64,000 nt of DNA from positions 248,001 through 312,000 of the forward strand of contig QQVN01000005.1 in assembly GCA_003352285.1 (NCBI GenBank). Reading direction: 5' to 3'. The translations under genes and the position numbers were made by a program. Below the pieces are notes generated by a model, which was given only the letters and a program-made list of their open reading frames with translations, searched no databases and was not told the origin of the DNA. This stretch comes from Thermoproteota archaeon. GTDB lineage: Archaea > Thermoproteota > Nitrososphaeria > Nitrososphaerales > Nitrosopumilaceae. Position 1 is the first letter of the stretch, and each line of letters begins with the position of its first letter. Below are positions 7,676 through 28,080 of this stretch, one piece after another.

Positions 7676-8821
7676 ATGTCGCAGAACACAGAAAAGATAG
7701 AAAAGGACATCAATTCATCCTCTGCAAATCGACTTTTAGTAATCTGTGTTGATAGAGATAATGACGTTGGTGAAAAAACTGGAATTGCTACACCAGTAAT
7801 AGGTAGAGACTCTTGTATTGAAGCTGCTCAAAGATTGGCGCTTGAGGATCCAGAAGATGCTGATTCTAATGCGATTTTTTCTGCAATAAAGACATATGAA
7901 GATTTGATTAGCAAGGGTTATCAAGTCGAAGTCATTACAGTAGCCGGTACAAAGAACAGGGGATTTCATGCAGATGAAAAAATTGCAATAGAAGTTAGAA
8001 AGGCATTAGGAAAGTTTTCAGCTAACGGCGCAGTAATTGTTTCTGATGGTGAAGATGATGAAAGTGTCATACCAATTATCCAAAATGTTGTACCAGTAAT
8101 ATCAGTACAAAGAGTAGTAATGAAAGTTAGTAGAAGTGTAGAGTACTCTTACGCAGTGTTTGGTAAATATCTGAAAATGATTGCATATGATTCTAAATAT
8201 TCAAAATTCTTTTTGGGAGTTCCAGGCGTTTTATTACTAATTGGAGGTATTGGAACCATCTTAGGATTAACTGCAGAGATATTTGCAGTGTTAGTTAGCA
8301 TTCTGGGCGGAGCATTTATGATCAGAGCATTTGATGTGGATAGAGCTGTAGCTAATTGGGCAAAGCCTACTCCTGCGGGATTTATTAGAATCTTCACAAT
8401 GGTTACTGGAATTATTATTATCATATCGTCTGTTCCATCAGGAATTAATGCAGTAGATCCTGCGTTGTTGAATTTAGAAGCAGATATTGTTAATCAGATA
8501 TTCAACAAAGTCTTGATTGCAGAATTTGTATCAGGTGCGCTTCCAATTCTTTGGGTAGGAATTGCAACAATATTTGTAGGAATTTTACTTAGTAATTGGT
8601 TAAGTGGAGTACCGAGACAAATTAGCGACATACTACGATTGGTAGTCCTTGGTTCACTTTATCCAACAGTAGGACAATTCACTTTGGTAATTACAAATGA
8701 TGAGAGTGCATTTAGTTTGATTCCACCATTACTTGGAGGAATGGCAATAACTTTGATTTCCGCTACAATTCTCTTCAAAAAATATCGAAAGCATAAAAAT
8801 CAAGAAATGCTCTCAGGCTGA
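7676..8821 (+). CDS. DUF373 family membrane protein
   Basis: The N-terminal soluble domain has the DUF373 hallmark LLVICVDRDNDVGEKTGI and later AVIVSDGEDDESVIPII. The C-terminal half has about six hydrophobic segments from residue ~150 on. ATG 7676 is preceded by GAGG at a suitable distance, so I prefer it to the upstream TTG at 7568, which would overlap the previous gene and add 36 low-complexity residues. DUF373 genes are widespread in archaea, and the biochemical role is unknown. Confidence 0.8.
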   Translation: MSQNTEKIEKDINSSSANRLLVICVDRDNDVGEKTGIATPVIGRDSCIEAAQRLALEDPEDADSNAIFSAIKTYEDLISKGYQVEVITVAGTKNRGFHADEKIAIEVRKALGKFSANGAVIVSDGEDDESVIPIIQNVVPVISVQRVVMKVSRSVEYSYAVFGKYLKMIAYDSKYSKFFLGVPGVLLLIGGIGTILGLTAEIFAVLVSILGGAFMIRAFDVDRAVANWAKPTPAGFIRIFTMVTGIIIIISSVPSGINAVDPALLNLEADIVNQIFNKVLIAEFVSGALPILWVGIATIFVGILLSNWLSGVPRQISDILRLVVLGSLYPTVGQFTLVITNDESAFSLIPPLLGGMAITLISATILFKKYRKHKNQEMLSG

Positions 8822-8994
8822 TATTATCAAACCTGAATTAAAGAAAAACACTGATATCATTATCCTAGTAAAAACAGACTAGGTGACGCAAGATAAACGG
8901 AATAAAGGATGCAGCATTTCATGTTTCGGGGCTTTACCGAATATACTCTAAGAAACTAGAAAAAGAGATTCGAAATGGTGACATTCCAAACCAT

Positions 8995-9684
8995 GTGGCC
9001 TTGATTCTAGACGGAAATAGAAGGTGGGCAAAAAGAAACCTGAATTTGCCTAAGAGCGGGCATTGGAAGGGGGCTGATGCAGTTGAGAATCTACTTGATT
9101 GGTGTGAGGAATTTGATATCAAAATTATCACTCTATATGCACTGTCTGCAGAGAATTTGCAAAGAGAGGATGAAGAACTAGAGTACCTATATGATCTGAT
9201 AAAAAATAGACTAGAGAAGCTCTACCGGGATCCTAGGATTCACAAAAATAAGATGAGAGTTATAGGTATGGGAAGAATTGAGCTTCTTCCAGAGTCAATC
9301 AAAGAAGTCTTACAGAGATTAGATGATGCTACCAAAAATTATGATAATCATTTTTTGAACATAGCAATTGCATATGGAGGACAAGATGAGCTGATAGATG
9401 CAATCAAAAAGATTGGAACTAAAATCAAGGATGGAAAGATAAAGCTTGAAGACATTGATAAAAATGAGATAGAGTCAAATCTTTACACATCACATTTACC
9501 TCAATCATCACCAGACATGATACTGCGTACATCAGGTGAAAAAAGACTCAGTGGGTTTTTGTTATGGCAGAGTGCATATAGTGAACTAGTCTTTATGGAT
9601 GTTTTTTGGCCAGAATTTAGAAAGATTGATCTTATGAGAGCAATTCGTATGTATCAGAAAAGAAAAAGAAGGATTGGAAAGTAA
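8995..9684 (+). CDS. uppS: cis-prenyltransferase (undecaprenyl/polyprenyl diphosphate synthase), 5' end uncertain
   Basis: It condenses isopentenyl diphosphate onto an allylic primer to make the long polyprenyl carrier used for glycan and S-layer glycoprotein assembly. The catalytic LILDGNRRWA motif (Asp6) and the closing MRAIRMYQKRKRR region are clear. The only in-frame canonical start is GTG 8995, which places the active site at the very N-terminus. The frame is open back to 8887 and encodes a convincing N-terminal helix (VSGLYRIYSKKLEKEI), but it has no ATG, GTG or TTG there. See the finding on this start. Confidence 0.85.
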   Translation: MALILDGNRRWAKRNLNLPKSGHWKGADAVENLLDWCEEFDIKIITLYALSAENLQREDEELEYLYDLIKNRLEKLYRDPRIHKNKMRVIGMGRIELLPESIKEVLQRLDDATKNYDNHFLNIAIAYGGQDELIDAIKKIGTKIKDGKIKLEDIDKNEIESNLYTSHLPQSSPDMILRTSGEKRLSGFLLWQSAYSELVFMDVFWPEFRKIDLMRAIRMYQKRKRRIGK

Positions 9685-9692
9685 GAAAGGAC

Positions 9693-10115
9693 ATGGCATT
9701 AGAAGAGACATCTGCAGGAGCAGTCATTTTTAGAAAGACAGAGAACGGAAATTCGTATTTGCTCTTACATTATCCATCAGGGCATTGGGATTTTGTCAAA
9801 GGCAAGATGGAATCAGGTGAAACACCTCGTGAGACTGCAATTAGAGAAGCAAAAGAAGAGACAGGAATATCTGATTTGATTTTCATGGATGGATTTGAAG
9901 AAACCATAGAATATAATTTTCAACATGAAGGAACTCCCATTCACAAAAAAGTTTTGTTCTACCTTGCAGAATCAAAGACAGAAGATATCACAATTTCTCA
10001 TGAACATCAAGACTTTGTTTGGCTGAATTTTAATGAAGCAATACAAAAAACAACATATCAAAATGCAAAGACCATACTAACAAAGGCTAATGAATTGATT
10101 TCAAGATTGCATTGA
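9693..10115 (+). CDS. Nudix hydrolase (Ap4A hydrolase-like)
   Basis: The Nudix box is complete at about residues 36-58: GKMESGETPRETAIREAKEE followed by TGI, matching GX5EX7REUXEEXGU. The fold and 140-residue length resemble archaeal/bacterial diadenosine tetraphosphate pyrophosphohydrolases (GHWDFVKG before the box). It hydrolyses nucleoside diphosphates linked to another moiety, but the exact substrate cannot be read from sequence. It follows uppS by 8 nt and is probably cotranscribed. Its 3' end converges with pyrF with a 15-nt overlap. Confidence 0.85.
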   Translation: MALEETSAGAVIFRKTENGNSYLLLHYPSGHWDFVKGKMESGETPRETAIREAKEETGISDLIFMDGFEETIEYNFQHEGTPIHKKVLFYLAESKTEDITISHEHQDFVWLNFNEAIQKTTYQNAKTILTKANELISRLH

Positions 10116-16535: not shown

Positions 16536-16814
16536 TTAATTTTGATTTTGTGGCCTGCCTTTTTTATTTTGAATATTATATGTAAAAAGTCCTGCATGTT
16601 TGAAGGTTTTTTCATTATGGGTCTCCATTACAAAACATACAGATTCATGAAATTGCTCTAATGTTTTGTTTCCACATATTCTACAGATATACTGAATCAC
16701 ACTTCTACATTTTCCACAAAACGCATATTCTAATAGCATTCCGCCGCATGTTCTACATGATTCATCGGGCATATTGAAAGCAATTTGTTCTGATATATTG
16801 GTAAGTACATTCAC
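16536..16814 (-). CDS. small cysteine-rich zinc-finger protein
   Basis: The 92-residue reading contains CRTCGG, CGKCRS, CRICGN and a later H-E-S-V-C, so three CxxC pairs plus a Cys/His pair. The spacing resembles the zinc-finger proteins at 21712 and 27811, though sequence identity is lower. MPDES at 16772 is an alternative start. The C-terminal residues KKGRPQN are encoded by the GGCAGGCCACAAA promoter element of the next gene. Confidence 0.6.
   Translation of the reverse strand: MNVLTNISEQIAFNMPDESCRTCGGMLLEYAFCGKCRSVIQYICRICGNKTLEQFHESVCFVMETHNEKTFKHAGLFTYNIQNKKGRPQNQN
16548..16559 (-). promoter_or_regulatory. GGCAGGCCACAA element upstream of the secreted-protein gene
   Basis: Read on the minus strand the site is AAAAAGGCAGGCCACAAAA, identical over 19 nt to the copy at 21653-21671. 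It ends 42 nt before ATG 16505, with TATA-like CTATTATATC in between. Confidence 0.6.
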
Positions 16815-18400: not shown

Positions 18401-18449
18401 ATATGAAATACATCTAGTTTTTATTTGTGGATAGTTCCTACATTGTGGT

Positions 18450-19316
18450 ATGCCTTCACCCACAGAACAAGGAGCGATTTATGGAAATCTTCATTCCTAC
18501 AAAATGTACACACGTCCAACTGCTCAACGACTGTTTGGAAGCTATTCTTTTAGAAAAAAATCAGGTCCCAAACATCATGAGAACATACAAAGGATGTTGG
18601 AAATTCTTGCATTAAATGGAACTTTAACCACATGGGGGATGGCTAAAACGCATCTTGATGATTCAAAAAGTATCAGAAGTCAAGAAAAAGAATACCGACG
18701 TTTATTGATGGGCAGAATGGCTCGTGGAAAACACACATCAGGATTACTTGATGTTGGATTGGTGGTAAAAGATGGAAAGAGCATGTTAAAAATTCCAGCT
18801 GATCAATACCGATTATCATTACACGGTATTTTGTATTCTTTAGACGTGTTAGATCTAAGTAACAAACAATCAGATACATTAGCTTCAAAATATTCACATG
18901 TTCTTCCAATGGTTTTTGGAAAATGGGATTTTCTCAAAGAAATAATTGAAGATGAAGTATATAGATTAAAAATTCTTGCAGGAGGTTTGTTTATGGATAA
19001 TATTCAGATTGCAAATATTACCAACTTTCCAGTGTATGAATTGATGACATATCTTAATGTGAAATACCAAAATAATTTTGAGCAGATTAACGAAGAAGAT
19101 TTGGCAGATCAAATTTCATTTTGGTTTTTCACTACCTTGTTAGTTCCTTCACGTTTAGGAAATGCAAAAAAACAAACTTCGTTAGCACTGAGCCAATGGA
19201 AGAGGATTTTCAAAGAAGATCCTGAATTGAAGAAATGGTATTATGGGTTTGTTGATGAAGCTATTGAGTTTTATTCAAAGAGATTCAAAACTATTAAAAA
19301 GCTAGATTCGCTCTAA
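18450..19316 (+). CDS. hypothetical protein with winged-helix-like region
   Basis: A soluble 288-residue protein. The N-terminal third has a helix-turn-helix-like pattern (ENIQRMLEILALNGTLTTWG, then MAKTHL) and a basic stretch. The rest is helical, rich in aromatic and charged residues, with no membrane segment. I do not recognise a family. It is divergent from the small CdvB-like gene, with 49 nt between the starts, and converges with the response regulator, overlapping it by 4 nt. Confidence 0.6.
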   Translation: MPSPTEQGAIYGNLHSYKMYTRPTAQRLFGSYSFRKKSGPKHHENIQRMLEILALNGTLTTWGMAKTHLDDSKSIRSQEKEYRRLLMGRMARGKHTSGLLDVGLVVKDGKSMLKIPADQYRLSLHGILYSLDVLDLSNKQSDTLASKYSHVLPMVFGKWDFLKEIIEDEVYRLKILAGGLFMDNIQIANITNFPVYELMTYLNVKYQNNFEQINEEDLADQISFWFFTTLLVPSRLGNAKKQTSLALSQWKRIFKEDPELKKWYYGFVDEAIEFYSKRFKTIKKLDSL

Positions 19317-19678
19317 GCATGTTTGTTTACAAGCTCTTCAAGAGTATCAAAGGAATATGGTTTTGATAATGTTGTGATTAAAGACATGCTCTTTGCCTTT
19401 AGATGTTTCTTCTCATCTACCGAATAAGCAGTTATCAAGATTACTCTTGCATCTGAATCAAATTTCTTTATTTTAAAAAATGCATCAAAACCATCCATCT
19501 GAGGCATTTTGACATCCATTATTACCAGATTTGGCTTTATTTCCTTGTATTTTTCAATTGCATCAGATCCATTTTCAGCAGTAAGTACATCAAATCCCAT
19601 ATTTTTTATCATAAATGCAGTATTCTCTAGTAGATCTGCATCATCATCTACCAGTAAAATGGTCTTTTTTGAGGACAT
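19313..19678 (-). CDS. single-domain response regulator (CheY-like receiver)
   Basis: A 121-residue receiver domain: acidic pocket LLVDDDADL, phosphoacceptor Asp55 in VIMDVKMPQMDGFD, Thr83 in LITAYS and Lys106 in LSKPYSF. It has no output domain. It lies 43 nt downstream of the histidine-kinase gene on the same strand, making a two-component pair, so the output must run through protein-protein contact. Confidence 0.9.
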   Translation of the reverse strand: MSSKKTILLVDDDADLLENTAFMIKNMGFDVLTAENGSDAIEKYKEIKPNLVIMDVKMPQMDGFDAFFKIKKFDSDARVILITAYSVDEKKHLKAKSMSLITTLSKPYSFDTLEELVNKHA

Positions 19679-19721: not shown

Positions 19722-21674
19722 TCATTCATTTTTTGAAATGGGAATCTTGACTGTAAAAGTAGTAGGATTATTCTTGACAAGTATAGATCCTCCATGTTGT
19801 TCAACAATGTTTTTACAGCTGGATAGGCCTAATCCGGTTCCTTTTTCCTTAGTAGTTACAAGTGGTTCAAAGATTCTATCTATGATCTTTTCTGGAATAC
19901 CAGGTCCAGTATCTTGGAATTCAATAATCTTAAAGGATTCATCAGAATTTATCATAATACTAATCGTACCAGTATCTTTACCAATTGCTTGTATCGCATT
20001 TAAAATCAAATTCGTGAAAACGATCTCCATTTTTTTTGCATCACATGTTATTTGATCGTCTTTAGTTGGAAGCACTAATGAGACACTAGATGGAATCTCA
20101 AGTGTTTCCATAGCTGATTCAATTAGAGATTTTATTGACACAGAAGTCATGTTGATGGGAGTAGTTCTTACATAATTCAAGACTCCTTCAATTTGATGAG
20201 ACATTCTAGCAATGGCACGATCCATTCTTCCTATTACCTTGTCTAATTCAGGATCATTGTCAGTTCGTGAACGTTTTAGAATCTCTGCTGAGCTACGAAC
20301 GGTAGTTAATGGATTTTTAAGATCATGTGCAACGTTTGCTGCTAGCTCCCCAATTGCAGTGAATCGTTCGTTTTTCACTTGTGCATTAGCTTCTGCAAGT
20401 TTCTTTTCTGTTTCAATTAGTTTTTGAAGTGATTCAGTCATTTGGTTAAATGAATCTCCAATAATCTGAAGTTCTGTGACATTACTATGTTTAGCTCTAA
20501 CATCAAAATCACCTTTTGAGATAGATTTTGCCATATTGGTAAGATTCTTCAGAGGTTTTGTTACTAATTGAGAGATTCCAAATCCAATTAATATTGAAGC
20601 AATCATTCCAATTACTGAAATTAATAAAATAGAGTTTCTCAAATCTACAAATTCATCGACAAATGATGATCGTTGTTGATCAACAACGACAATCCAATTA
20701 AAACCTTCAAATGATTTGTAGCCTGTTGATTTTGCAAAAGAGATTAGTCTCAAATCCTCATTGGTCGTTCCCAGTTCAAAATTACCAATGTCTTTATCAT
20801 TTGGAATTAAATCATAATATGAAACAGGTTGTGCATTTTCAAATTTTTGAATTCCATCTGAATAAATTATTCTCCCAGCATCATCTAATAATACAACATT
20901 ACGATTAGGTAATTTCAAAAGTTCTACCTCATTAACGAATGAATCAAGTAAATCATCTATTGTTACAACGACTCTCATAACTCCAAGAAAGTTATGTTCT
21001 GTGTCCTCTACACGAAATGCAAAAGTCATAACATAGTTTCCATAATCTTCACGGAACTTCAGATTATCATGGTACACTCCCTTATCTCGTGCAATATACC
21101 ACCATTCTTCATCATTTTTTCTATCATCGGTAATCGCAGAGTTTAGTGCGACGTTGGCACCGTATGAATTAGTTATCGATATTTCTTGCAATACGTTAAA
21201 GTCGTATTCATCTTTGTAAAGTTCCTTAGTTCGGTTTAATTCCTTTGTAAGTTCCCTATCTATAACTTCAGACATGAATGGAGTTAAAGTGCTATTGGAT
21301 ATTGTAGCATCAATTAATTGTGGATTTGCAGCTTTAACTTCTTCAAGATGTTTGAATTTATCATTTGATGCAATTAAGGCCACCTGAATTTCGTTAATAC
21401 GAGTCAGTTCTTGTAATGCAGAAATTCTTTTTTCAATCTGTTGATCTAAATCCTGCATAATATTGAAGGCAAATACATCATTTCTAGAAGAAACCAATTT
21501 TTTCATCTCTTCAATGCTGATATCAAATGTGATTACTCCATATACAGCAAATACTAGAAACATAACAAACATTCCACCAATTACTACAAATGATATTTTC
21601 AACCTATTCAGCCAAAGTGAATTGAATTTGAATTTAAAGATCACTTTAAGGCAAAAAGGCAGGCCACAAAACAT
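19722..21674 (-). CDS. Cache-domain sensor histidine kinase
   Basis: Order of parts: TM1 (about residues 27-49), extracytoplasmic double-Cache-like sensor (50-345), TM2 (349-371), HAMP (372-425), HisKA with phospho-His450 (ELAANVAHDLKNPLTTVR), then HATPase_c with N-box FTNLILNAIQA, G1 DTGPGI and G2 GTGLGLSSCKNIVEQHGG. The first 10 codons from 21674 overlap the GGCAGGCCACAA element and read poorly, so GTG 21644 is a plausible real start. It pairs with the CheY-like gene at 19313. Its ligand is unknown. Confidence 0.9.
   Translation of the reverse strand: MFCGLPFCLKVIFKFKFNSLWLNRLKISFVVIGGMFVMFLVFAVYGVITFDISIEEMKKLVSSRNDVFAFNIMQDLDQQIEKRISALQELTRINEIQVALIASNDKFKHLEEVKAANPQLIDATISNSTLTPFMSEVIDRELTKELNRTKELYKDEYDFNVLQEISITNSYGANVALNSAITDDRKNDEEWWYIARDKGVYHDNLKFREDYGNYVMTFAFRVEDTEHNFLGVMRVVVTIDDLLDSFVNEVELLKLPNRNVVLLDDAGRIIYSDGIQKFENAQPVSYYDLIPNDKDIGNFELGTTNEDLRLISFAKSTGYKSFEGFNWIVVVDQQRSSFVDEFVDLRNSILLISVIGMIASILIGFGISQLVTKPLKNLTNMAKSISKGDFDVRAKHSNVTELQIIGDSFNQMTESLQKLIETEKKLAEANAQVKNERFTAIGELAANVAHDLKNPLTTVRSSAEILKRSRTDNDPELDKVIGRMDRAIARMSHQIEGVLNYVRTTPINMTSVSIKSLIESAMETLEIPSSVSLVLPTKDDQITCDAKKMEIVFTNLILNAIQAIGKDTGTISIMINSDESFKIIEFQDTGPGIPEKIIDRIFEPLVTTKEKGTGLGLSSCKNIVEQHGGSILVKNNPTTFTVKIPISKNE
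21658..21669 (+). promoter_or_regulatory. GGCAGGCCACAA element upstream of zinc-finger gene
   Basis: GGCAGGCCACAA ends 42 nt before ATG 21712 on the plus strand. The 19-nt surrounding sequence is identical to the copy near 16548. It also overlaps the 5' end of the longest histidine-kinase reading. Confidence 0.6.
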
Positions 21675-21711
21675 CGATTATGGTCAAATATCAAATCATG
21701 TAGTAGTGACC

Positions 21712-22014
21712 ATGCAGCAAACGGATGTTTTTTCTACGGTAATTCCTGATGTGCGTGACTCCTGTATTCTGTCAGCAGATTTCCCCCCAATGAAAAATCA
21801 TTCATCAAATTACCAAAAAAGCATCCTTGCTCGAAATATTCTGTTTGCATGTGAAGATTGTAACGGTGCATTAATTCCTTCAACTCTATGTGTAGTGTGC
21901 AAAAAGACCAATTCGAGAATATGTGTCAAATGTTCTTCCAAAATAAGATTGGATGGGCATAAATCTTGCGAATGCTTAATTTTGCTTTCATTAATGCATT
22001 CAGAAAAAAAGTAA
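21712..22014 (+). CDS. zinc-finger protein, paralogue of 27811
   Basis: About 100 residues. The C-terminal half reads LARNILFACEDCNGALIPST, then LCVVCKK, ICVKCSS and GHKSCECLILLS, matching the protein at 27811 (LRNLLFVCDKCCGPTVPT, CMICKK, CVKCSS, KHQKCIVLIS). The B-box-like Cys/His spacing suggests one or two zinc sites. ATG 21712 is chosen over longer frames because of the promoter element 42 nt upstream. The two paralogues flank the S-layer gene. Confidence 0.65.
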   Translation: MQQTDVFSTVIPDVRDSCILSADFPPMKNHSSNYQKSILARNILFACEDCNGALIPSTLCVVCKKTNSRICVKCSSKIRLDGHKSCECLILLSLMHSEKK

Positions 22015-22155: not shown

Positions 22156-22245
22156 AAAAAAAATTCTTACTGCCGTAAAATATTATTCTGAAATGTCTCA
22201 TAACATGAACAATCGAGATATCGAAGAATCATATTGGCAGTAAGA
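22156..22245 (-). ncRNA. predicted structured small RNA with U8 tail
   Basis: On the minus strand TCTTACTGCC (22245-22236) pairs perfectly with GGCAGTAAGA (22174-22165). Inside it AATATGATTCT pairs with AGAATAATATT, with one mismatch and a 4-nt bulge. The 3' side runs directly into A plus eight Ts (22163-22156), a terminator-like end. A TATA-like TGATATATTA (about 22266-22276) lies about 25 nt before the stem, and a GGCACGCCACAA element lies about 46 nt before it. The longest possible peptide is 16 residues. It could instead be a regulatory hairpin of a longer transcript. Confidence 0.55.
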
Positions 22246-22290
22246 CATAGTATATCAATCTAAAAATAATATATCAGATTTATTTTCAAA

Positions 22291-22302
22291 TTGTGGCGTG
22301 CC
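22291..22302 (-). promoter_or_regulatory. GGCACGCCACAA element upstream of predicted RNA
   Basis: On the minus strand GGCACGCCACAA, one base different from the copies at 16548 and 21658, lies 45-46 nt upstream of the predicted RNA start, with a TATA-like box between. No protein gene starts downstream on this strand. Confidence 0.55.
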
Positions 22303-22396
22303 ATGTTGGCAGGACATGTAAAAAAATAATTTTTCATAACTTTCGTTAAGTGCTTATTCAAAAAAAGAAAAAAAGGATAGTTTGATGTTTCTAGTA

Positions 22397-25300
22397 TTAC
22401 TTTACGTAGATGTCGATTTTATTTGGAGGTGACAATGCTGTTGGATTGGTAATGCTCTCCCATACGAAGACTGTTGCTTCATATGTTCCAGCTTGACTTG
22501 GGGTCCAAGACTGTGATGGACTAAATGATTGTCCAGCAGTTAGGGATCCTTCAATCCATGACAGTGAAACTGTTACGCCGTTTCCATCCTGAATCTGTAC
22601 AATGTATGCAAATGCTTGTGCTCTATCTTGGCCGTTTGCCAAATCAGCTGTGACTTGTACTTGTTGGTCTACGGATACACTGGATAGTGCACGTCCGAAT
22701 GCATCAACAACTCTAACATTAGAAGCTGGAGCTCTCTCTAGAGGAGGTACAATTGTTCCGATTAGCGATGTGCCTGTGATATCAAGTTCGTCTGCAGTTG
22801 TGTATGGACTAGGTAGTGTATTGTCCTCATATTCTGCGGTGATTGTGTCACCTTCTGAAACTCTGAGTCGGTGACCGGAAGATCCATCGGTAGTAGTGAA
22901 GAACACTGTTCCCTCGAATATTCCAGTTGCCTCGTTAGTTTCAGTTACAGTCAAGTCAATACCACCAGCGTCGGAGTCAGACCAGACGTCGATGTTAAAG
23001 TTGTCGACTGCTTCTGGATCCAAGTTCATGTCTGGGTCAACTACGCGTACAACACCTGTACCTTTTGCTGGGTAGCTTGCTTCAAGCCACTGAACTTCAC
23101 CGATATTCCATCTGATCAATGCTGAACCTATTACAGTCTCATCCTCTGAGAACTCAAAGGATACTGTAATACCATCATTGTCCTTAGCAGGTAGGAATCC
23201 ATCAGTTGGTCCTGCACCTGCAGATGACTTTGCTGGAGCGGTAATATCGTTAGCGCCATCACCATCGGCATCGTGAACGAAGCCGGTTAAGATAACTTCA
23301 CCTGTGAAGATACCTGTGTCAGTACCTGTCTCGACGAGTCTGTATCTATCAATAGAGTTGCCTCTTGTAGATACCTTGATTGGATCATTAGCTGATTCAC
23401 CAATTTCATCAATCAAGTCGCTGTCGAAGTTGTGGTCAGGTGCGACGATGGTAATGTATACTTTATCAGTCCAAGTGTAAACTTTCTGGTCAAGTTCTAC
23501 TGTTGCGCCAAAGTTGGATGTAAAGATGGTTAAGTTAATGTCCTCTTCCTCTTGTCCAACATAGTCTGCACCAGATGGTCCCCAGTCAGTATATTCTAGT
23601 ACAATCTCTTCACCTCTCTCTAATCGGTCACCTTTCAAGACTTCAGGAATCTCGATGACTATCTGGAAGATACCAGTAGAGTCACCTGTTTCTCTAAAGT
23701 CAGATGGTTCTGGATCAAAGGAAGCTGCTGAGCCACCTGCATTACCCATGGATAGGGTTGCAGCGTCTGAATCCCATTCAATGAGATCAAGATCATAGGT
23801 TTCAGCAACATCATTATCAAGGTCCCAGTCTGGTTCAATTACGGTTAAGATCATATCAGAACCAATAATGTAAACAGACTTGTCAGATTGTAATACACCA
23901 TTTCTAAGGTCAAATGTAGCAGAATCGGTTACAGTGTTTGGTTTTCCAGATGCATCAGTTGGGTCAGTGTATTGTACAGTGATGATATCACCTTGTAAGA
24001 TACAATAGTTTTGACCGCTTGCGGATGCAGTTGCAAATCGCATTTGTTCACCGCCTCTAGAACCGTTTGTTTGGTGCTTAAATGAGGTGGTTGTTGGACA
24101 AATTGAGCTGTCTGGACCATCAGTGTATCTGATGACAAAGTCTAGCTCAAAGATGCCAGCGTCTGGTGCGATTTCAGTAATTGGTCCTAGTTCTGTGGTT
24201 CGTTTATCCTTATCAAGAGATCTAACTGGATCTTTACCAATTGTGATCTTACCTGGTTGGGCAGTTACGTTACCAGCAGTTGCTAGTGTCAATACTTCGG
24301 CTGCTCTGGACACTGTGATCTTCACAGGGCCAGATTTACCAGCAATTGATTGTGCGATTTTATCTTCACCGCTTGCTGAGACATCAAAGTCTGGATCGTT
24401 TACTCTGACGTGAATTGTCAAGTCACCCTTGTTCAAGAATGCACCAGCTTTTGTAATTGGTGTTGCAGCTGGGCTAGCAGAAGTGTTTGGAGCCTGTGTT
24501 GCAAGGCTTTGGACTCCTGTTGCATGAATTGGGAATATTGAGAATTCGTTAGAATCAGTTGTTCCTGTTGGAACAGTAAAGTCTGCTGGAATACCAAATG
24601 GAACTGGGTAAACAGTTCTATCTAGGCTGACTGAACCAGTGTTGGCTCTGATTCCTGCAGAATCTCCTACTTCGATAATCTCACCTGATGCGTCTCTGTA
24701 ATCAACATAGTTAACTTCCATATCAACTCCCGTAGTACTTCTTGTTGTAGTATCAGTGTTACAATAGTCGGCTGGGACTTGGAAGTCACCAGTAAAGACA
24801 CCGCTAGAAGCAGTTGTCTCAACTAAAGTAAATCCTGTTGCTACTAGACCTGTATCACCAGATGGTGCACATGTAAAGGTACCATCGTTAGTTGGGTTGT
24901 TTGTCCATCTTGCATCATCAAATGTGATGTCAAGCAGTCTACCGAATGCTTCTCCTTCGGAGTTCAATCCGTAGAATGGTGAACCCACAGCCTGGTACGC
25001 CTTGTCAGTAAGTACACTGACTACGGTGTAAATCTCGATAGTATCTGTATCTGTGTTAAGGTCTTGGTCTTCAAGTGTTACGGTTACTGTATCAGCAATC
25101 TTGTAGGTGTTTGAATCAAATGAAACCACACCAGAGTGAGAAGGTGCTTCTTGTTGGTCAGCAATCTGTGTTGAGACACCGTCTGCTCCCAAGTCAAGAT
25201 AGTTAATTCTCACTGAATCCTCATCAGTAAAGTCTTCGTTAACAACAATCTGGAGATCATCATTAATTGTTCGAATGGACTCATATGTTGAGGATTGGTT

Positions 25301-27643
25301 AGTGTTTAGTTGGTTTAGCATAATGTATTCAACTGTTCCTACAAATACACCTGTGTTATCATCGGTCTCTTCTAATTCTGCTCTGTAAATTGCATTGTTG
25401 TATCTGTCAGAGGAAGTAATACCGTCATTGTCGGTACCAAACTTGAAGAAATCAACAACTGCCATTAATGCAGATGAATTAGTAAGAGTCATTATCTTTT
25501 GGCCTCCTGTTCCGCCATTACCGGCACCAGAAGAGGCACCAGATGGGAAGAATTGGAAGTCTACTCTTAGAGTACCAGTACCACCAATTGATGAGTCACC
25601 AACTGCTGCGCCACCGAAACCGCCGCCACCACCTACGTTCAATCGGATTAATCCGCTTGAAGCAGTGATTTTGCCTTTGGTTACGTTAACTGCAGTTGTA
25701 GCTGAGCTACTGTCTGTGGTTGCGTTTGCAATTAGTATGTTAAATGGTACAGCTGTTGCATTTAATGCACCGGTGATACTTCTAATGTCGTAGTTAAGAT
25801 AATGATAGATTGAGTTTGTTGTTCCATTGTTAAGGAATTTAGATAGATCATTCATGGTTTTACCAGTGAATGTATAGTTGAATGAAGTGCCATCAACAAA
25901 GCCACTACATTTAGCTTGATTACCAACTCCTGGAGAGTTAGCACATGACTGTACGGTAGTTCTTGCTCTTTGGCTGAATGATTCAACTGTTGTAGAGGTA
26001 ACTGCATTACCGCCAGAACCTTGACCGTTAGTACCGTTAGTTATTGAAACTAGAGTACTTGATGCGGTAGTAGTTGTTGGTAATGTAATTGGAGATCCAA
26101 TCTTGATGGTTGGGATAAGCTTTACGGCTGCATTGTTTACATCCAAGTCCTCATCTGTTAGTGCATTCAAGTTTGAGTCGTTATCGGTTAAACTAACTTT
26201 GATTCTCTCACCAGAGTTCCATTCATCGCCAACACTTGCTCCATCCATATCAATGGTTGCAAAGAAGTGTCCGACTAGACCTGAAACAAATCCTGGAGAA
26301 TCATATTCTATCTCAAATGTCTGTCCTCTTTTTGCAGTTGATGCAATAATCAGATTTGCTTTGCTGTCACCAGAACCATAGTTGACAAAGGTTGCAGAGT
26401 TGCCACCTGTTTCAACAAAGTTTACTGGGAAGCTTGCAGCGGTGATTTGACCGCCAGTGCCTATTACGGCTGAACCTTTGGTTGCACCTGTTGCAGTGAT
26501 AACAGTAATTGGATAGTCTTCGTTAGCTTGTAAGTCGATTTGAACTGTTCCTTGTGGGGAACGCTTGATTGCTACTAGTTCATCAAAGTGTGGGTCACCC
26601 ATTGTTGGTGATTTGATACCAGAAGCATCTTTCAATGCGACTGTGTTAACAGCTCTTGCTGCACCATCTTCATCATAAACACCATAGAATATGGTCTTGT
26701 TTGAGGAAGAGGTACCAAATACCCATGTATCTTCATCAGTTGGATCAACATTCAATCCTTGGTCAGTAATTGTTACAATAACATCTGCACCCAATGGGTA
26801 CTTTGTTCTGTCAAGTACTGGCTTTGACTCTACTGGATCATCTAAGAGTAGGGTAACTTTTTCGCTACCACCTGCTCTGTTATATACGATATTCATGTTT
26901 GAGTTTTCAGCAACATCATAGAGTTGAATGAATGGCCAAAAGTTAGTATCACGGAATTTAATTTGTCCTGGTCCAGTTGCTGTAACGCCACTGTTGAGAG
27001 TTTCATTCTCTCGAATGACGTTCATTATTTTATCACCTGGATTTGGATTTGCACTTCCTGAAATGGCTGTAAGTGGTTTTGCAGCTGCTTGGCATGCAAC
27101 TAATGCAGTGGTACCATCAGTACCGTTGCTAGTTGCGCCACCTGCACCTGCTGCAAAGTATCTTGGTACAGCATATCCTGTTGTTGCAGACAAATCAATT
27201 CCTAGTGGAGTTGATGCGCTGTTCAAACAGAATTGTCCAACGTTTAGTCCAAGTCCTAAGGCTTGAGCTGTTCCGTTGGTGTTGCCCAATACTGCATCCA
27301 TGTTTTGCATGGATACTCTATCTGCAACATATGCATACCAAGCACCATCAGTTGCTTGTGCCATTCTAACTTTCTTACCGTTGAGTGATACGTTTGGTTC
27401 ACCTTTACCCTGGTCAGTGTCACTGATCAGTGGGTCGATTACAACAATTTCAATTACGTTTCCTGGACCAATCTCATTTAGTGAGTTGTGTCCTTCGCCG
27501 GAAACGAAGAGGTGTGGATTGCTTTGTTTGGCTACTGCAAATGCTTCAGGAGTAACTCCTGGGATAGCAAATGTCAGTGAGCCAGCTATCATAATTGTCA
27601 TTAATGTAAGACTAGTTATTTTGCGTCCTATCTCGTTATTCAT
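22397..27643 (-). CDS. S-layer protein (SlaA-type, Nitrosopumilus)
   Basis: A 1748-residue secreted protein with a signal peptide ending near EAFA (residue ~36), then the N-terminus AVAKQSNPHLFVSGEG typical of Nitrosopumilus S-layer proteins. The body consists of repeated Ig-like beta domains containing VxxDxxxYxxxDxVxITVxDPDxNxDP and TGxFxG units, rich in Asp, Thr and Ser and poor in Lys. These form the hexagonal surface lattice, and the acidic pores are thought to help enrich ammonium. No C-terminal membrane helix is present. The base composition is distinctly higher in GC than the neighbours, as expected for a very highly expressed gene. Confidence 0.92.
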   Translation of the reverse strand: MNNEIGRKITSLTLMTIMIAGSLTFAIPGVTPEAFAVAKQSNPHLFVSGEGHNSLNEIGPGNVIEIVVIDPLISDTDQGKGEPNVSLNGKKVRMAQATDGAWYAYVADRVSMQNMDAVLGNTNGTAQALGLGLNVGQFCLNSASTPLGIDLSATTGYAVPRYFAAGAGGATSNGTDGTTALVACQAAAKPLTAISGSANPNPGDKIMNVIRENETLNSGVTATGPGQIKFRDTNFWPFIQLYDVAENSNMNIVYNRAGGSEKVTLLLDDPVESKPVLDRTKYPLGADVIVTITDQGLNVDPTDEDTWVFGTSSSNKTIFYGVYDEDGAARAVNTVALKDASGIKSPTMGDPHFDELVAIKRSPQGTVQIDLQANEDYPITVITATGATKGSAVIGTGGQITAASFPVNFVETGGNSATFVNYGSGDSKANLIIASTAKRGQTFEIEYDSPGFVSGLVGHFFATIDMDGASVGDEWNSGERIKVSLTDNDSNLNALTDEDLDVNNAAVKLIPTIKIGSPITLPTTTTASSTLVSITNGTNGQGSGGNAVTSTTVESFSQRARTTVQSCANSPGVGNQAKCSGFVDGTSFNYTFTGKTMNDLSKFLNNGTTNSIYHYLNYDIRSITGALNATAVPFNILIANATTDSSSATTAVNVTKGKITASSGLIRLNVGGGGGFGGAAVGDSSIGGTGTLRVDFQFFPSGASSGAGNGGTGGQKIMTLTNSSALMAVVDFFKFGTDNDGITSSDRYNNAIYRAELEETDDNTGVFVGTVEYIMLNQLNTNQSSTYESIRTINDDLQIVVNEDFTDEDSVRINYLDLGADGVSTQIADQQEAPSHSGVVSFDSNTYKIADTVTVTLEDQDLNTDTDTIEIYTVVSVLTDKAYQAVGSPFYGLNSEGEAFGRLLDITFDDARWTNNPTNDGTFTCAPSGDTGLVATGFTLVETTASSGVFTGDFQVPADYCNTDTTTRSTTGVDMEVNYVDYRDASGEIIEVGDSAGIRANTGSVSLDRTVYPVPFGIPADFTVPTGTTDSNEFSIFPIHATGVQSLATQAPNTSASPAATPITKAGAFLNKGDLTIHVRVNDPDFDVSASGEDKIAQSIAGKSGPVKITVSRAAEVLTLATAGNVTAQPGKITIGKDPVRSLDKDKRTTELGPITEIAPDAGIFELDFVIRYTDGPDSSICPTTTSFKHQTNGSRGGEQMRFATASASGQNYCILQGDIITVQYTDPTDASGKPNTVTDSATFDLRNGVLQSDKSVYIIGSDMILTVIEPDWDLDNDVAETYDLDLIEWDSDAATLSMGNAGGSAASFDPEPSDFRETGDSTGIFQIVIEIPEVLKGDRLERGEEIVLEYTDWGPSGADYVGQEEEDINLTIFTSNFGATVELDQKVYTWTDKVYITIVAPDHNFDSDLIDEIGESANDPIKVSTRGNSIDRYRLVETGTDTGIFTGEVILTGFVHDADGDGANDITAPAKSSAGAGPTDGFLPAKDNDGITVSFEFSEDETVIGSALIRWNIGEVQWLEASYPAKGTGVVRVVDPDMNLDPEAVDNFNIDVWSDSDAGGIDLTVTETNEATGIFEGTVFFTTTDGSSGHRLRVSEGDTITAEYEDNTLPSPYTTADELDITGTSLIGTIVPPLERAPASNVRVVDAFGRALSSVSVDQQVQVTADLANGQDRAQAFAYIVQIQDGNGVTVSLSWIEGSLTAGQSFSPSQSWTPSQAGTYEATVFVWESITNPTALSPPNKIDIYVK

Positions 27644-27692
27644 ATTATTACAGGCTTGGTTTGAAAATTATTATTAGTGCATAACTGTAAAA

Positions 27693-27704
27693 TTGTGGCG
27701 TGCT
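27693..27704 (-). promoter_or_regulatory. AGCACGCCACAA element in S-layer promoter
   Basis: On the minus strand TAGCACGCCACAA ends 49 nt before the S-layer ATG, with an A/T-rich TATA-like CTAATAATAATTTT between. It is the same element as at the neighbouring zinc-finger genes. Confidence 0.55.
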
Positions 27705-27754: not shown

Positions 27755-27767
27755 TAGCAGGCCACAA
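27755..27767 (+). promoter_or_regulatory. AGCAGGCCACAA element upstream of zinc-finger gene
   Basis: TAGCAGGCCACAA ends 43 nt before ATG 27811. Together with the opposite copy at 27693-27704 it forms a divergent pair between the S-layer gene and the zinc-finger gene. Confidence 0.55.
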
Positions 27768-27810
27768 CAAAAACTAAGTTTACAAATAATACTTGAAATA
27801 ATTTTTTTTG

Positions 27811-28080
27811 ATGTTTGATGCCAACAATTCGGTAACGAAAAATTTGCAAAAGAATAGTAGCATGCATAATTATACTACGTTTAATGAAAGTTCGATTTTA
27901 AGAAATCTTTTATTTGTATGCGATAAATGTTGTGGCCCTACAGTACCAACAGCATCATGTATGATTTGTAAAAAATGTTCTATCAGAAACTGTGTAAAAT
28001 GTTCTTCGGATGTATTCATGGATAAACATCAAAAATGTATTGTGCTAATATCTTATTTATATAAATTAAAAAACAAATAA
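27811..28080 (+). CDS. zinc-finger protein, paralogue of 21712
   Basis: An 89-residue protein with CDKCCG, CMICKKC, CVKCSS and a final H-x-K-C, the same Cys/His layout as the protein at 21712. The last 15 residues are hydrophobic and lysine-rich. It is divergent from the S-layer gene and shares its promoter element. Regulation of, or assistance to, S-layer expression is only a guess from position. Confidence 0.65.
   Translation: MFDANNSVTKNLQKNSSMHNYTTFNESSILRNLLFVCDKCCGPTVPTASCMICKKCSIRNCVKCSSDVFMDKHQKCIVLISYLYKLKNK

Follow-up and report, generated by a model that had tools for sequence, protein, structure and literature searches.

In RNA-OUT of Tn10, a stable hairpin presents a loop that pairs with the target mRNA, RNA-IN, at its 5' end and start codon. 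The bacterial sRNA MicF, which acts in outer-membrane remodelling, is encoded beside the porin gene ompC and blocks the translation initiation of ompF. Campylobacter fetus carries S-layer paralogues with conserved 5' ends, which are expressed one at a time by means of DNA inversion. In archaea, sRNA162 of Methanosarcina mazei masks a ribosome binding site in trans, and its single-stranded linker pairs with a regulator mRNA at an internal cistron, with targets of the MM2441/MM2442 type (PMC3510493).

Here, we describe a hairpin RNA encoded beside an S-layer gene in a 64-kb stretch of Nitrosopumilaceae DNA (the window). With a probability of roughly three in four, we regard it as a trans-acting antisense sRNA that is made together with the adjoining S-layer gene, slp2, and blocks the main S-layer gene, slp1, at its start codon. 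The hairpin, the shared promoter element, the antisense match, the preference for slp1, the recurrence in three genera and the joint presence or absence with slp2 were all computed. Like sRNA162, it would be an archaeal sRNA that masks a translation initiation region by pairing in trans and is tied to a physiological switch; unlike sRNA162, it would pair through a hairpin loop, and its target would be the start codon of an S-layer paralogue of its own neighbor. The loop-presented antisense to a start codon resembles RNA-OUT, but RNA-OUT is transcribed opposite its target, whereas here sRNA and target are unlinked and match over 20-23 bp with interruptions. As in MicF/ompF, the swap of a surface protein would be aided by an sRNA that keeps translation of the replaced protein from starting, although in another domain of life, with a loop-borne pairing site and with a promoter element in common with slp2 on the same strand. 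Alternative S-layer paralogues are also found in C. fetus, where DNA is inverted, while the evidence here points to RNA. Hence, the RNA is a member of none of the sRNA162, RNA-OUT and MicF systems. Its putative kind is that of a trans-acting antisense sRNA, unusual in that it accompanies one paralogue and targets the other.

The window genome contains two full S-layer genes. The alternative gene slp2 (22397..27643, minus strand; 1748 amino acids) adjoins the hairpin, and slp1 (G000:C4:48519-53729), to which it is 89% identical, is unlinked. The small RNA (22156..22245, minus strand) comprises a 10-bp terminal stem, an inner stem, an apical anti-start loop and a U8 tail, and is supported by its fold and by homologues 3' of slp2 (L047/L172 and L159); its ends are inferred from the promoter and the U-tract. 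A sequence-only reading of the window had already proposed a perfect 10-bp stem that encloses a second 11-nt stem and ends in U8. The terminal stem is indeed perfect, with the 5' arm TCTTACTGCC at 22236..22245 and the 3' arm GGCAGTAAGA at 22165..22174. The U8 tract, the probable termination site, lies at 22156..22163 and is preceded by two A's, and a U-tract also occurs in two homologues. The second stem (AATATGATTCT/AGAATAATATT) is present as well, but its pairing amounts to 5+5 bp around one mismatch. Contrary to the same reading, which found no frame longer than 16 codons, a 21-codon ATG frame (22232-22167) lies inside the hairpin; it looks like a chance frame. The segment 22245-22162 folds at -24.2 kcal/mol compared to -11.8 +/- 2.8 kcal/mol for shuffled sequences (z = -4.4; 0 of 200 shuffles as stable), and the whole 148-nt region reaches a fold z of -3.8. 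The hairpin is thereby confirmed as a real structure. No Rfam family matches it (best sub-threshold score 17.7 bits against a cut-off of 99), and only two tRNAs reach the gathering threshold in the window. On direct reading, box C/D guide sRNA motifs (C box RUGAUGA, D box CUGA) are absent from 22245-22165(-).

Two relatives carry a homologous hairpin. In Nitrosarchaeum ECS25A1 (G025), the hairpin 3' of an S-layer gene with the start ATGTATAACG (L047/L172) has a differing stem (AACTATGAATG/CATTCATAGTT), and its loop fits the second S-layer gene (L055/L173), which starts ATGAACAACG. The genome G045 (1,645,259 bases) is presumably that of N. maritimus SCM1, with S-layer genes at 1.10 and 1.42 Mb, the positions of Nmar_1201 and Nmar_1547. 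There, the hairpin follows the 1.10-Mb gene (slp2; start ATGTACAACG), the 1.42-Mb gene (slp1) starts ATGAATAACG, and the loop GTTATTCATGTT matches AACATGAATAAC. In both relatives, the hairpin is located just 3' of slp2 and has an slp2-like promoter element, a U-tract and an anti-start loop, which favors slp1 over slp2 by about 5-6 kcal/mol.

Upstream of the stem, the sequence-only reading had placed an S-layer-type element and a TATA-like box, and both are borne out. The element GCACGCCACAAT at 22290..22301(-), 45 nt upstream, is identical to that upstream of slp2 at 27692..27703(-), and these two copies are its only exact matches in the window. The degenerate form GCAYRCCRCAANTT has seven exact matches in the genome, among which only the RNA and slp2 copies read GCACGCCACAATTT, with TT added. 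The candidate TATA box GATATATTA (22267..22275, minus strand) lies 22-30 nt before the stem. In each of the three genomes, the RNA has a promoter region like that of slp2 and unlike that of slp1; in G045, the RNA promoter GCATGCCGTAACTTGAAAGTTATTTCAAAATAACAATC and the slp2 promoter ACATGCCGCAACTTGAAAGTTATTGCAAAATAACAACC are nearly identical over 38 nt. The slp1 promoters have a TGGAC-GTCCA palindrome, and their TATA box precedes the AUG by about 30 nt, so that the slp1 leader probably spans only a few nucleotides. The proposal of a structured RNA with its own promoter, whose element is common to the adjacent S-layer gene, is thus supported at the sequence level by the element shared in three genomes, by an architecture kept with differing stems and by the joint absence of RNA and slp2 in a sister species.

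Given its U8 end and its place between convergent genes, the hairpin might merely terminate transcription or form a 3' UTR structure, for slp2 or for the converging gene, with the antisense stretch as a remnant of an inverted S-layer 5' duplication; the loop could derive from such an inverted gene fragment. We consider this unlikely, as slp2 has its own U-tracts 20-45 nt past the stop codon, slp1 and other S-layer genes carry such U-tracts without a hairpin, and the hairpin is preceded by its own slp2-type promoter element. Moreover, the stems of the window RNA and of the other two RNAs are wholly different, yet the anti-start loop is retained at the tip. A separate element, TTAACGNNAGTTATG, occurs a few nucleotides past the U-tracts of nearly every S-layer gene, at slp1 and slp2 loci alike (window, about 22334-22348(-); same place in, e.g., L043, L045, and L061), and might act as a binding site or fold into a small hairpin with a GNNA loop.

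The first sign of antisense, which the sequence-only reading had missed, was a similarity search in which the region weakly matched the start of another S-layer gene in antisense orientation. The apical loop of 15 nt (GAUUGUUCAUGUUAU; GATTGTTCATGTTAT at 22200..22214, minus strand) is antisense to the slp1 start codon (ATAACATGAACAA) by a 13-nt match. It is predicted to be unpaired in the minimum-energy fold, and the anti-start loop is on average 59-66% unpaired in the predicted ensemble. A second block, TATCTCG (22214..22220, minus strand), pairs with codons 3-6 of slp1 (CGAGATA) in the duplex, with one bulged A between it and the loop block. Loop and adjoining arms thus read TATCTCG-A-TTGTTCATGTTAT-GA-GAC, and the start of slp1 reads AGTCAATAACATGAACAACGAGATAGGACG. 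The resulting pairing of 7 + 13 + 3 bp covers -9..+17, with the bulged A and a small internal loop. With slp2 (start AATAATATGAATAACGAGATAGG), two G-U pairs replace G-C pairs in the 13-bp block, and the longest uninterrupted Watson-Crick match is 7. For the window genome, G025 and G045, the uninterrupted match across the AUG of slp1 is 13, 11, and 13 nt, and that to slp2 is 7, 8, and 6 nt; among 4000 shuffled RNAs, 0, 8, and 1 attained the slp1 match length of the respective genome. Hence, the complementarity of the RNA to the start region of slp1, which is encoded elsewhere, exceeds chance, and this match would supply a function for the RNA, to which the sequence-only reading had assigned none.

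Duplex energies were computed with the 38-nt apical segment, because the full 89-nt RNA forms long interrupted duplexes with anything and its duplex energy is uninformative. For slp1 and slp2, they are -30.2 and -23.1 kcal/mol in the window genome, -28.0 and -22.0 kcal/mol in G025, and -24.2 and -18.7 kcal/mol in G045. Binding energies that include the folding of both RNAs are -8.1/-4.2, -9.3/-4.4, and -9.1/-1.5 kcal/mol in the same order. In the window genome, with the window and 20 kb around slp1 as background, only the RNA's own locus outranks the slp1 start among 8376 own-genome segments. In G025 and G045, the slp1 start comes in about sixth place, preceded by the RNA's own locus and by a few interrupted duplexes in the sampled DNA; non-target segments of equal or slightly lower energy arise there since the calculation permits long interrupted duplexes. 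In the window genome, G025 and G045, codon 2 ends in C, C, and T in slp1 and in T, T, and C in slp2, and the RNA has G, G, and A opposite this third base. The RNA matches slp1 at this base and thus follows slp1 rather than its neighbor slp2. Pairing is kept in the relatives, across three genera, with this one compensated position. As S-layer starts are strongly conserved, the covariation of sRNA and target rests on few positions, and cross-genome energies are not always best for the own slp1.

An RNA that is encoded beside slp2, has a promoter element in common with it and still pairs with it at the above energies might instead act mainly on slp2 itself, as a negative feedback that damps the alternative S-layer. 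This is improbable given that the differences in slp2 weaken the pairing in three of three genomes, slp1 keeps the pairing, and the uninterrupted matches are longer for slp1 throughout. When the own genome was searched by similarity to the slp2 start for a reciprocal RNA directed against slp2, only the two S-layer starts and chance matches were found.

We then turn to the distribution of the RNA. A covariance model built from all three RNAs retrieved those of G045 (4e-19) and G025 (2e-18) among 250 Nitrosopumilaceae genomes, and that of the window genome at a modest 0.009, because the latter had entered the model by its core only; other matches were weak. Those with E values of 0.01-1 (best L181) were not accepted as members; L181, the one inspected, lacks an anti-start loop. 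A pattern of loop core and U-tract, run on the 250 genomes, returned the window, G025 and chance matches in unrelated sequence (L124, L125), and DNA similarity searches of the family genomes with the whole 148-nt region gave, besides S-layer starts, mostly short AT-rich matches. A match to the S-layer start was obtained in 127 of the 250 genomes, and more than one in 11 of these. Out of 64 distinct starts that were read, 58 have an slp1-type operator upstream, and three have the slp2 element without the slp1 operator; these are the same three that are followed by the RNA. In the sister species Nitrosopumilus sp. b1 (G001), the flanks are syntenic and contiguous, and slp2 and the RNA are both missing, with one 155-aa gene in their place. 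The RNA thus has three firm members and one candidate. The candidate (G160, L168, about 1842-1772(-)) has a 12-bp stem and an 11-nt match to the slp1 start; it is divergent from another S-layer gene, with a TGGATCAATGGTTCA palindrome in between.

The two S-layer proteins are 89-92% identical within a genome and 55-71% between genomes, and at +20..+300 slp1 and slp2 are 96-100% identical. Because the paralogues are more alike within than between genomes, their sequences suggest homogenization by gene conversion. The within-genome likeness is read as conversion since the RNA shows a common origin of the slp2 loci of G025 and G045. In the pairing window (-10..+20), the two genes differ in each genome (27/33, 27/30, and 26/43 aligned columns identical). 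These start-region differences fit selection that keeps slp2 immune; alternatively, they might mark the boundary of a conversion tract. At all loci, the first ~60 nt of S-layer coding DNA (ATGAAYAACGA..TAGGACGTAAAATAACTAGTCTTAC) are conserved across genera, more so than the remainder of the gene.

As the S-layer paralogues have conserved 5' ends and the locus holds a short inverted copy of such an end, the switch could also operate at the DNA level, with the inverted start as a recombination site through which S-layer genes are exchanged or inverted as in C. fetus. Rearrangement can appear in assemblies: on a 1,232,128-base contig of G020 (L163), 311-aa S-layer 5' fragments at 7883-8818(+) and 8785-9720(-) face each other and overlap, either as a true rearrangement or through an artefact of assembly. 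At the locus studied here, however, the shared block is only 13-20 bp long, interrupted, and placed within a hairpin with a promoter element and a U-tract. A crossover at this site would not bring slp1 next to any promoter or coding sequence, and no recombinase was seen adjoining the locus. We therefore regard a DNA switch as very improbable.

For the antisense sRNA, we infer transcription, binding in vivo, repression of slp1 translation and a resulting swap of the coat. Conditions that induce slp2 would induce the RNA via the same promoter element, and its apical loop would display the complement of the slp1 start codon. The RNA would then pair with the slp1 mRNA from about -9 to +17, where the leader is probably very short, and cover the AUG. 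Ribosome loading would be blocked, and slp1 translation would stop while slp2 is expressed. The slp2 mRNA would be spared because its start region differs in the pairing window. We lean slightly towards a further step, in which the RNA enforces mutual exclusion of the cell coat: one regulator would switch on slp2 and the sRNA via their common element, the abundant slp1 mRNA would be silenced at the start codon and slp2 would be immune, with its immunity changes persisting although the remainder of both genes is nearly identical. According to PMC11153153, cultured cells build their S-layer from Nmar_1547, the main S-layer protein, which is expressed above Nmar_1201, and PMC12448741 reports Nmar_1201 as upregulated in biofilm. 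These expression data agree with two alternative coats; the passages that give them mention no sRNA.

Ammonia-oxidizing archaea are among the most abundant microbes of the ocean. To our knowledge, no functional sRNA is known in them, and none was found in the openly licensed literature. Nor do we know of an explanation for the presence of a second S-layer gene, 91% identical to the first, in N. maritimus. If true, the proposed function would give a concrete mechanism by which one of two coats is chosen, with predictions that match in three genera. An sRNA able to tell apart paralogues so nearly identical would be unusual. The same function could account for the near-identity of slp1 and slp2 everywhere but at their promoters and start regions. 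Such an RNA switch of the cell surface, and the sRNA family behind it, seem to be undescribed so far; no sRNA of such kind was found in openly licensed papers, where absence is no proof. According to PMC11153153, the S-layer of ammonia-oxidizing archaea concentrates ammonium at the cell surface.

In the window, the neighbors of slp2 are genes for a response regulator, a sensor kinase of the HAMP/HisKA type and a 288-aa protein that has no Pfam match; together they occupy 18450-19316(+), 19313-19678(-), and 19722-21674(-). The same three-gene set adjoins slp2 in G025, and the response regulator and the 288-aa protein do so in G045. It is possible that these two-component neighbors control the switch. 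They were not retained as part of a module with slp2 and the RNA, being present without slp2 in Nitrosopumilus sp. b1. Near-copies of the element of slp2 and the sRNA are found in the window at 16547-16558(-), 18442-18453(-), 21659-21670(+), and 27757-27768(+), close to genes that include small zinc-ribbon-like proteins (21463-22014, 27808-28080), and exact copies are clustered at 274-305 kb of the contig G000:C3. Judged by sequence, the copies near other genes look like a regulon.
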